From contig BFAR01000076.1 of assembly GCA_008974855.1 (NCBI GenBank), forward strand, positions 1 through 14,149: a stretch of DNA of 14,149 nt. Reading direction: 5' to 3'. Shown here in pieces: positions 11,443-13,700 of this stretch. Source of the stretch: an archaeon MnTg01 (lineage in GTDB: Archaea > Thermoproteota > Nitrososphaeria > Nitrososphaerales > Nitrosopumilaceae). Under the pieces are notes generated by a model that saw nothing but the letters and a program-made list of their open reading frames with translations, was not told the DNA's origin and ran no database searches. The position numbers were made by a program, and so were the translations under genes. Positions within the stretch are counted from its first letter, which is position 1; each line of letters opens with the position of its first letter.

Positions 11443-12048
11443 GTGGAAACATTGAGAGTAAAATGTGATCAAGAGGGAATTAATATCGCAGTAAATACTA
11501 TTAAAAATGGAGGAACGATAGTTTTTCCTACAGATACTGTATATGGTATTGGTTGTGATCCATATAATCAAAATGCTATAAAGTCAATTTATCAAATAAA
11601 AAAACGAGTTCAATCTAAATCATTTCCAATTTTAGGTTTATCAAAAAAAGAACTTTTAGAAGTTGCCATATTTGATGAAAAAGCAAATAAAATTGCTGAC
11701 AAATATTGGCCAGGTCAAATTACTTTAGTATTAAAACTTAGAGATAAAAAATTAAAACAGATTCTAAATCTAGATGACAAAATAGCAGTACGGGTTCCTA
11801 ATAATGAATGTGTCCTGGCAATTTTAAAAAAATGCAAACTAATCGTAGGAACTAGTGCAAATATTTCTGGTTCTCAATCATTTAAAGATCCTGAAGAATG
11901 TATTAGGAATATTTCAGGGTATGACTTGTTTGTTGATGGGGGAATAATTTCTAGTAAAGGCGAGTCTACAGTAATTGAAATTGATAAAGAATTGAAAGTG
12001 GGAAGGAAAGGAGTCATATCTGAAGAGGAGATAATGGAGCTGTTTTGA
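11443..12048 (+). CDS. tsaC: L-threonylcarbamoyladenylate synthase (TsaC/YrdC/Sua5 family)
   Basis: This enzyme makes threonylcarbamoyl-AMP from threonine, bicarbonate and ATP. KEOPS then transfers the group to A37 of ANN-decoding tRNAs (t6A). The 201-residue protein is a single YrdC domain without the C-terminal Sua5 domain, so it is of TsaC type. Motifs are GGTIVFPTDTVYGIGCD (23-39), KKRVQSKSFPIL (53-64, the KxR..xKP-like nucleotide site), YWPGQITLVL (88-97), AVRVPN (115-120), VGTSANISG (135-143), and STVIEI (175-180). The start is GTG at 11443. An AT-rich TATA-like stretch (11413-11427) is suitably placed. Its TGA overlaps the TTG of the THUMP gene, and a Cgi121-domain gene lies just beyond on the other strand. 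Confidence 0.95.
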   Translation: METLRVKCDQEGINIAVNTIKNGGTIVFPTDTVYGIGCDPYNQNAIKSIYQIKKRVQSKSFPILGLSKKELLEVAIFDEKANKIADKYWPGQITLVLKLRDKKLKQILNLDDKIAVRVPNNECVLAILKKCKLIVGTSANISGSQSFKDPEECIRNISGYDLFVDGGIISSKGESTVIEIDKELKVGRKGVISEEEIMELF

Positions 12049-12566
12049 ATTTAATTCTCACATGTCCTCGTCATTATGAAGAAGAAGCTATAAGAGAAAT
12101 TAAGAAATTTCTTAACGAGTTTGGAGATGAAAATCCTGAATTCAATATAACAAACATGCCTGGCATAATTACAATAAAAACGAGTCTAAATCCTATTAAT
12201 ATTATAGAAAAGATTCGTGATAAGATACTAGATGAGCCTTGGTCTGTTAGATATTGTCAAAGAATAATTCCAATTCAAAGTGTTTGTGCTACAGATATCA
12301 AAGAAATTAAAGATGAAATTCAAAAAAAGATTAAATTTTTCAAACCAGAAGATAGTTATCGAATTACGGTAGAAAAAAGAAATTCAAAAATTTCTTCTAA
12401 TGAAATTATATCGGAAATTGCAAAAGATATTTCAAATAAGGTTTCTTTAGATACTCCAGATTGGGTTGTATTAATAGAAATAATTGAAGATGAAACAGGA
12501 ATTGCCGTTATTCCAAACAATACTATCTTAAGTGTAGAAAAGGTAAAACGGTCGTTATCAGATTAA
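12045..12566 (+). CDS. THUMP-domain protein, Tan1/THUMPD1-like
   Basis: This is a probable tRNA-binding adaptor. The 173-residue chain starts with LILTCPRHYEEEAIREI (3-19), typical of Tan1-like proteins. It continues with the YCQRIIPIQSVCAT segment (70-83). The THUMP core is RITVEKRNSKISSNEII (106-122) through SLDTPDWVVLIEI (134-146) and TGIAVIP (151-157). Yeast Tan1 and human THUMPD1 recruit the acetyltransferase Kre33/NAT10 to make ac4C12 in tRNA. The equivalent job here is inference, and no acetyltransferase or methyltransferase domain is attached. The TTG start overlaps the tsaC stop as TTGA, and GGAG sequences lie just upstream in tsaC, so the two are co-translated. The last nine bases overlap the convergent Cgi121-fusion gene. 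Confidence 0.88.
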   Translation: MNLILTCPRHYEEEAIREIKKFLNEFGDENPEFNITNMPGIITIKTSLNPINIIEKIRDKILDEPWSVRYCQRIIPIQSVCATDIKEIKDEIQKKIKFFKPEDSYRITVEKRNSKISSNEIISEIAKDISNKVSLDTPDWVVLIEIIEDETGIAVIPNNTILSVEKVKRSLSD

Positions 12567-13334
12567 AATAGTTGCTTTTTCAGTTAATAGATCTTCCAAT
12601 GGGTTTAAAGATATTATTGCATCTATCTGATTTTTTGATATATTAAATTTTTTTCTTAAAAAAATTTGATTGTTTTTAGATAGTGGATTATTGTTTAGAA
12701 ACGGTTTAACATAATTAAATAATTTGTTTAGCATGAATTTTTTACCAATTGCAATTACTATAAAGCCATCACCAGTTTTTATTCCAACTCGATGTATAGC
12801 ATCTTGAATCTGTGTGGTACATGCAAATCTCAATAAAATATCAGTATCAATCCTTTTTGAGATTAAAGTGCTGTTTTCTTTAGCCATATTTGAAATGGTA
12901 ATAATTTTTTCTGCGTGAGATTTACTAAGAATATAGTTAGAGGATATTGCTTGAATTACTAGATCAGGATATTTTTTCCTTGTTTTATCTAAAAAATTAA
13001 TATCAAGTTTTCGATTTGCTTTGATATCAAATAACTCAACATATGAATTAGAAATTTTGAATTGAATCCTTGTAGAAGAACCTCCATGTATTATTGGAAT
13101 TATACTAACAACATCATTATTTTTTAATTTAGTAAATGATCCATCTATTGCTGAAGAATCGATTCCATTAACAGCAACTAATAAATTATTTACATCAAGA
13201 TTAATAGAATTTTTTGGTTTATTCTTTACTAAAAAATCTAAGAGTTGTTGGATAGTAATATCATTTTCATCAATAATAAGACTATCAACTAAAAATGATT
13301 TTTTAGCACCACCCAAAAATTTTACAGTGATCAT
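12558..13334 (-). CDS. MoaD/ThiS-like ubiquitin-fold domain fused to KEOPS subunit Cgi121
   Basis: This is a two-domain protein of 258 residues. Residues 1-85 read as a complete beta-grasp sulfur-carrier/ubiquitin-like domain. MITVKFLGGAKKSF is the first hairpin, ITIQQLLDFLVKN the helix, LLVAVNGIDS a mid strand, and LKNNDVVSIIPIIHGG the final strand ending in Gly 84-Gly 85, where free MoaD and SAMP proteins end. Residues about 90-258 are a Cgi121 domain. Its hallmarks are DILLRFACTTQIQDAIHRVG (165-184), FIVIAIGKK (191-199), and the end KKFNISKNQIDAI...EDLLTEKATILI. Cgi121 binds the kinase Bud32 and presents tRNA 3' ends to KEOPS for t6A synthesis. Stand-alone Cgi121 is about 150-180 residues. 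It lies 33 bases after eS17 on the same strand and converges on tsaC-THUMP. Confidence 0.88.
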   Translation of the reverse strand: MITVKFLGGAKKSFLVDSLIIDENDITIQQLLDFLVKNKPKNSINLDVNNLLVAVNGIDSSAIDGSFTKLKNNDVVSIIPIIHGGSSTRIQFKISNSYVELFDIKANRKLDINFLDKTRKKYPDLVIQAISSNYILSKSHAEKIITISNMAKENSTLISKRIDTDILLRFACTTQIQDAIHRVGIKTGDGFIVIAIGKKFMLNKLFNYVKPFLNNNPLSKNNQIFLRKKFNISKNQIDAIISLNPLEDLLTEKATILI

Positions 13335-13367: not shown

Positions 13368-13700
13368 TTACACCTTATTACCAGAGGATGATTCTTCAGA
13401 CTTGTTCTCTGAAACCGTTTCTGTCACTTCTAGTGGTTCTTCTTGATTTGTTGACGCTGATTGTTCCTCACTAGTACGTTCTTCATTCCCAGATTTAGCT
13501 TCTTTAGCTAATTTTTCTTCATTCTGTCGAATTTCACGCTTTATGAATCTAGTAATGAATCCAGCTAACTGATTTTTTAATCCTTTTGAGCGTACAATAG
13601 CAATATCATCTATAATTTTTTTATTTTCACGAAAATCTGTACCAAATTTTTCTTTGTAAGTCTCTAGTATTTCCATTGAAATTTTTTTAATTCTATCCAC
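13368..13700 (-). CDS. rps17e: 30S ribosomal protein eS17 with acidic C-terminal extension
   Basis: This is a small-subunit protein shared by archaea and eukaryotes. The core is residues 1-62: MDRIKKISMEILETYKEKFG, then TDFRENKKIIDDIAIVRSKG, then LKNQLAGFITRFIKREI, matching the S17e signature (FxxNKK and the LRNxIAGYITRLVK-like motif). Archaeal eS17 is usually about 60-70 residues. Here residues 63-110 add a low-complexity tail rich in Glu, Ser, Thr and Asn and nearly free of hydrophobics. The GTG at 13700 is supported by a strong TATA box about 25 bases upstream and by the family start. It is followed after 33 bases by the Cgi121 fusion, probably on one transcript. Confidence 0.92.
   Translation of the reverse strand: MDRIKKISMEILETYKEKFGTDFRENKKIIDDIAIVRSKGLKNQLAGFITRFIKREIRQNEEKLAKEAKSGNEERTSEEQSASTNQEEPLEVTETVSENKSEESSSGNKV

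Follow-up and report, generated by a model that had tools for sequence, protein, structure and literature searches.

A fused gene in the S17e neighbourhood

The window analysed here, a stretch of 14,149 nucleotides, comprises contig BFAR01000076.1 (assembly GCA_008974855.1) of the ammonia-oxidising archaeon MnTg01, a member of the Nitrosopumilaceae. It encodes a chain in which a ubiquitin-like (Ubl) domain is joined to Cgi121, a subunit of KEOPS (Table 1). This two-domain open reading frame had been described in the earlier note as a MoaD/ThiS-type Ubl in residues 1-85 followed by Cgi121 in residues 90-258. The observation and both domain identities were confirmed by sequence profiles and an AlphaFold model, which are concordant (pLDDT 90.5). 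Residues 1-85, for which the note had asked for a structural check, are predicted to adopt a beta-grasp fold that matches MoaD, Urm1, and SAMP1, and the profile matches include the Urm1 structures 2k9x (E 2.2e-5) and 2ax5 (E 6.5e-4). No Ubl family scored above cut-off in an NCBIfam search of the fusion, with Urm1_like, moaD_arch, MoaD, and SAMP1 all falling below. The remainder of the chain has both the fold and the sequence profile of Cgi121. Gln71-Ile72 of Methanocaldococcus jannaschii Cgi121 are reported to contact the tRNA 3' end (CCA) (PMC7718258). The pair compared with them, Gln175-Ile176, is invariant in 161 aligned fused rows, and by alignment these would be the residues that contact the CCA end in the window protein.

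Table 1. Features of the Ubl-Cgi121 locus in the window.
Feature	Positions	Strand	Remarks
Sua5/YrdC, threonylcarbamoyl-AMP synthase of t6A synthesis	11443..12048	+	TIGR00057 E 3.6e-47, above cut-off
Stand-alone THUMP protein	12045..12566	+	Pfam THUMP E 1.1e-9; convergent with fusion gene, 3' ends overlap by 9 bases
Ubl-Cgi121 fusion gene	12558..13334	-	258 aa, ATG start
Cgi121 domain, residues 90-258 and stop	12558..13067	-	
Gln175-Ile176	12807..12812	-	Aligned with Gln71-Ile72 of M. jannaschii Cgi121 (profile alignment to MJ0187)
Linker S86-S87-T88-R89	13068..13079	-	Entropy 1.55-3.06 bits; pLDDT <50 at 84-86
His83-Gly84-Gly85, proposed mature C-terminus and cut site	13080..13088	-	Conserved HGG
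Ubl domain (Urm1/ThiS/MoaD-like beta-grasp), residues 1-85	13080..13334	-	Pfam ThiS E 1.2e-8; model matches
Ribosomal protein S17e	13368..13700	-	Pfam S17e E 2.4e-19; same strand, 33 bases upstream of fusion gene

The reading frame is continuous, as had been stated, and both domains are present in 119 of the 120 homologues listed (the best 120 of 1162, those nearest the query); an assembly merge was therefore rejected as the source of the fusion. Among 37 Nitrosopumilaceae loci the neighbours were S17e (37/37), the THUMP protein (37/37), TatD (35/37), and Sua5 (28/37), the last adjoining THUMP wherever it was found. Sua5 is probably sited elsewhere in the remaining nine genomes, since their locus sequence extends at least 419 bases beyond THUMP. 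The proposed tie to t6A synthesis is strengthened by Sua5 and the THUMP protein as neighbours. The THUMP protein was also seen at Cgi121 loci of several other families. The S17e of the window is 110 amino acids long and carries a long acidic, serine-rich tail past the 67-position S17e model of NCBIfam.

The fusion itself is already known and has been in print since 2010, so the suggestion that such a join was undescribed was mistaken. Makarova and Koonin reported Ubl-Cgi121, with S17e beside it, in all Thaumarchaeota then sequenced (PMC2948915); theirs is the same protein family as the one in the window, likewise next to S17e. The same authors suggested that SAMPylation regulates KEOPS, or that functions in the turnover of RNA and proteins are coordinated, and mentioned a Ubl-E1-TBP arrangement in Thaumarchaeota. 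Cleavage of the chain as a precursor and the split and unlinked forms described below are absent from the relevant passages of that account, and neither the series of forms nor the cleavage reading was met in the available portions of the literature examined on the fusion. KEOPS and Cgi121 do not appear in the main text of a 2024 survey of archaeal fusions (PMC11237513), and no Ubl-Cgi121 passage was found in searches of PMC9889334 or PMC9654439. No experimental test of the fusion was found in the literature searched, which was mostly open-access.

Fused, split, and unlinked forms across the order

One Cgi121 locus per genome was collected from the window's order, giving 102 loci in 14 families. 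Forty-one are fused, 50 have a Ubl gene upstream on the same strand (a class called adjacent here, with gaps to cgi121 of up to about 700 bases), and 11 have no Ubl nearby. Pfam PF08617 had no match in 31 of the 101 genomes of the order sample; four loci without such a match (L120, L133, L138, and L139) entered through a Ubl search, a route that favours the adjacent class, and Cgi121 matches in three genomes of family f1, identified as the Nitrosopumilaceae from the source names of homologues (G143, G184, G248), and matches in three genomes of family f3 that contributed no Cgi121 locus (G291, G266, G258) were left out of the 102. Fused loci make up 36 of 37 in f1 and 5 of 34 in f3. The split arrangement was found in all 14 families, with a single such locus in f1, and all 11 loci without a nearby Ubl belong to f3. 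A scan of genome contigs placed fused loci in records of Nitrosopumilus, Nitrosotalea, Nitrosarchaeum, and Nitrososphaera. One of the six split rows in that scan (L278, Nitrosotalea sp. TS) has a frame break inside the Ubl that is possibly a sequencing error.

Fused and split Ubls alike carry the motif HGG (91/91 in the order set). In the 50 split Ubls HGG is the exact C-terminus in 33 and is followed by 1-9 extra residues in 16, which are like short precursors, and one is fused elsewhere. That one (L195, 397-1236) joins a Ubl with an FHGG border to a phosphoribosyltransferase in a chain of 279 amino acids (Pribosyltran E 3.5e-16, ThiS E 4.1e-8), and cgi121 and sua5 are the next genes after it; at another locus (L202) a stand-alone phosphoribosyltransferase gene lies between ubl and cgi121. 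The one split Nitrosopumilaceae genome, G058, has a TGA directly after HGG-A. The reading frames of ubl and cgi121 overlap in five loci of family f2 (L157, L160, L162, L165, and L189), where a possible cgi121 start lies inside the end of ubl in another frame. Among the 30 best Cgi121 loci found beyond the order in the phylum sample, five have a Ubl within reach upstream (L012, L014, L032, L024, and L021), with HGG at the end or at most two residues from it, and three of the five are directly adjacent. No such Ubl was within reach at the other 25.

Of the 11 genomes whose cgi121 has no Ubl nearby, 10 encode the Ubl beside S17e elsewhere; nine of these Ubls end exactly at HGG and one runs five residues further. 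No Ubl of this type was found in the eleventh, G262. At all 13 unlinked Ubl loci examined, those 10 and three from additional genomes, S17e adjoins on the same strand, and TatD is present at 12. This position beside S17e supports the orthology of the unlinked Ubls, and because it holds for all 13, the Ubl appears to have stayed in place while cgi121 moved. A quick tree of 78 rows (including 13 of the 37 Nitrosopumilaceae rows, and leaving 28 of its 75 inner branches open) grouped f1 and f3 each together and intermixed fused and split rows within one f3 clade. Seven changes among the fused, adjacent, and unlinked states are required on this tree, which does not separate gain from loss. Because every locus examined in the remaining 12 families is split, the operon S17e-ubl-cgi121 is probably older and the fusion derived, apparently more than once, with one secondary split in f1 (G058).

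The earlier note had offered two options for the Ubl, a fixed docking domain or a part that is cleaved off. Both were apt, and the evidence favours cleavage, because in most related families sampled the Ubl is a separate protein that ends at HGG or a few residues past it. If the fusion instead stays intact, the Ubl would serve KEOPS permanently as a docking or regulatory domain, with its Gly-Gly as a flexible hinge or part of a binding surface, not a reactive end. The near-constant fusion in Nitrosopumilaceae is in keeping with this, and a physical link within KEOPS is plausible since the ubl and cgi121 genes neighbour each other across the order and in 5 of the 30 loci outside it. However, a docking domain would not be expected to occur as a free protein with HGG as its exact end (33/50), to be separated from cgi121 in some members of one family, or to be attached to another partner, the phosphoribosyltransferase. 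We regard permanent docking as somewhat unlikely.

Conservation at the Gly-Gly border

Fused rows were aligned from 120 of 121 homologue rows (one of 245 amino acids was left out; the homologues are the best 120 of 1162, nearest the query) and the 41 fused loci, giving 161 rows of which 160 are distinct, the window protein being present twice. The intact Gly-Gly noticed at the domain border is real, with HGG at positions 83-85, and its conservation in homologues, the other check that had been proposed, is complete in the rows aligned: H83-G84-G85 shows no variation in 161 of 161. Positions 86-91, directly behind it, are variable (entropy 1.55-3.08 bits), and position 92 has an entropy of 1.19 bits; the mean is 1.39 bits for the Ubl and 1.78 bits for positions 100-258. 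Residues 84-86 form the sole segment of the model with pLDDT below 50. The genome-contig scan returned HGG in 79 of 80 rows, a biased count that carries no evidential weight because the peptide pattern searched with itself contains HGG.

The absence of variation in three adjacent columns, with variable residues behind them, argues for selection at the border. An invariant HGG ahead of a drifting stretch is the pattern expected of a processing site or of a functional C-terminus, and three fixed residues in that setting would not be expected of a mere hinge; it is not obvious why the hinge of a docking domain should keep H-G-G constant when the sequence that follows is not. The same columns bear on the idea that the fusion is a neutral joining of operon genes through loss of a stop codon, with the Gly-Gly a relic that has no present function. 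Fused, adjacent, and unlinked states do alternate, with seven changes on the 78-row tree, and in G058 a TGA directly behind HGG-A separates the two genes, as neutral joining might produce. Selection on the motif speaks against a relic, and this explanation was rejected on the invariant HGG (161/161) as extremely improbable.

A putative cleaved precursor and its candidate enzymes

We propose, with a probability of roughly 0.55, that the conserved Urm1-like Ubl joined to Cgi121 is a derived linear precursor, processed by a JAMM protease whose cut falls after Gly85. Fusion would have arisen in an ancestral S17e-ubl-cgi121 operon whose Ubl was a separate product ending in His-Gly-Gly. Translation would yield the fused chain in linear form, and a JAMM/MPN+ metalloprotease would then separate its two parts behind Gly85. 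The freed Ubl would then be adenylated by a MoeB/Uba4-type E1 and would serve as a sulfur carrier for tRNA 2-thiolation through an NcsA/TtuA-type enzyme, as a protein modifier, or as both, and the freed Cgi121 would join KEOPS and hold tRNA by its 3' end while t6A is made. Two traits of JAMM-processed linear Ubl precursors, a Gly-Gly border and a related free form, are both found in this family.

Cleavage of comparable chains has been described. HvJAMM1 is reported to cut SAMP1-MoaE behind the C-terminal Gly, no cutting was observed in vivo once the Gly-Gly had been deleted, and the uncut form did not support DMSO respiration (PMC4443979). DRJAMM is reported to cut MoaD-MoaE (PMC8832034), and CsRpn11 and CsJAMM to process Ub and SAMP precursors (PMC6043591). 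SAMP1-MoaE and MoaD-MoaE resemble Ubl-Cgi121 in their N-terminal Ubl, Gly-Gly at the border, C-terminal pathway partner, and encoded JAMM; they differ in that the partner is MoaE of molybdopterin synthase, that SAMP1-MoaE was engineered, and that cutting was shown by experiment in those cases and is a prediction here (PMC4443979, PMC8832034). An invariant Gly-Gly need not mark a JAMM site, since HvJAMM1 is said to have cut linear fusions that lacked a diglycine in earlier work cited in PMC8832034. Taken against the in vivo result in PMC4443979, such diglycine-independent cutting means that Gly-Gly alone is no proof of a JAMM site, and it might be retained for a reason other than cutting.

A protease of the JAMM family is encoded in the window genome, whose Prok-JAB protein (E 4.5e-13) contains the motif H-S-H-x7-S-x2-D, read in that copy alone; matches to the Prok-JAB family were obtained in all 22 Nitrosopumilaceae searched. 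At two loci, in two genomes of one Nitrososphaeraceae genus (L085, 7-447; L133, 2138-2554), the Ubl-Cgi121 group has a JAMM gene next to it, and these are the only 2 of 116 loci scanned with a JAMM-motif reading frame beside the Ubl, none being found in the other 114 short loci. The ubiquity of the protease family is also what would be expected if cutting were a switch, the intact chain being an inactive storage form of KEOPS and Ubl whose cutting activates t6A synthesis and sulfur transfer together, in the manner of SAMP1-MoaE. SAMP1 on MoaE is reported to keep molybdopterin synthase off until HvJAMM1 cuts (PMC4443979), and the suggestion that SAMPylation regulates KEOPS (PMC2948915) points in the same direction. 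However, the two genes are separate in most families sampled, and regulation by cutting the fusion could therefore not be general; such a switch is distinctly unlikely.

The linear precursor that we favour would need an E1, and the window genome encodes one of the MoeB/Uba4-type family, itself a Ubl-E1 fusion of 446 amino acids with AGG at the border (L001:1432-2772) that contains the genome's second Ubl. This fusion is another possible source of carrier. When its border was compared in 120 proteins 80-98% identical to the query, several residues behind the Gly-Gly were as conserved as the Gly-Gly itself, and the comparison was uninformative. A full-length E1 match was missing in 4 of 39 Nitrosopumilaceae, with none in G065, G193, and G236 and a score below cut-off (23.5 bits) in G208, all four being 98-99% complete multi-contig drafts, and in one fused Nitrososphaeraceae genome out of five (G273, 87% complete). 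The fusions of these five E1-deficient genomes retain an unaltered HGG. ThiS-family matches numbered two in 36 of 40 Nitrosopumilaceae and one in four, and those four are the same Nitrosopumilaceae without a full-length E1. The 29 ThiS-family matches listed for Nitrosopumilaceae lie in reading frames of 258-271 or 438-484 amino acids, apart from one of 89 amino acids in the split G058; no ready-made free Ubl of a fused genome was found among the matches listed, though PF02597 could miss a divergent one.

The persistence of HGG in four near-complete Nitrosopumilaceae genomes without a clear E1 counts against the precursor and in favour of the docking domain. HGG may have a use independent of E1, which would favour docking, or E1 may have been lost recently or lie in assembly gaps. 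Points in favour of the precursor are the Ubl attached to a phosphoribosyltransferase in L195, the second Ubl attached to E1 in the window genome, the published JAMM cutting of Ubl fusions, the JAMM family in every Nitrosopumilaceae genome searched, and the NcsA/TtuA-type family TIGR00269 in 20 of 22; TIGR00269 had no match in G095 or in the window genome, which is incomplete (68.9%). The Ubl was also considered as the MoaD of molybdopterin synthase. Its partner MoaE was found in 0 of 22 Nitrosopumilaceae, the 68.9% complete window genome included, which makes a role in molybdopterin synthesis unlikely, and this candidate was rejected. Compared with the Urm1/Uba4 and SAMP/UbaA systems, the Ubl profile matches Urm1 structures and an E1 is encoded in the window genome; in those systems, however, the Ubls are free proteins, whereas the C-terminal glycine of the Ubl described here is internal in the encoded product, and a clear E1 is absent in the 4 of 39 Nitrosopumilaceae.

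The precursor might couple two tRNA modifications, supplying Urm1-like carrier and Cgi121 in equal amounts and placing the carrier at or on the KEOPS complex; in this way tRNAs that require both modifications, s2U34 and t6A37, for example tRNA-Lys-UUU, would be handled together. This extension is quite doubtful. In the ubiquitin-ribosomal protein fusions of eukaryotes, as in Ubl-Cgi121, a Ubl forms the N-terminal part of an unrelated housekeeping protein; there the partner is ribosomal and eukaryotic DUBs cut after Gly-Gly. Should the coupling hold, Ubl-Cgi121 would be an archaeal counterpart of these fusions. The occurrence of a single gene pair in split, fused, and unlinked states amounts to a natural experiment. 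If the proposal is correct, a cleaved Ubl precursor with a role outside molybdopterin synthesis would tie Ubl biology in ammonia-oxidising archaea to both tRNA thiolation and the synthesis of t6A.
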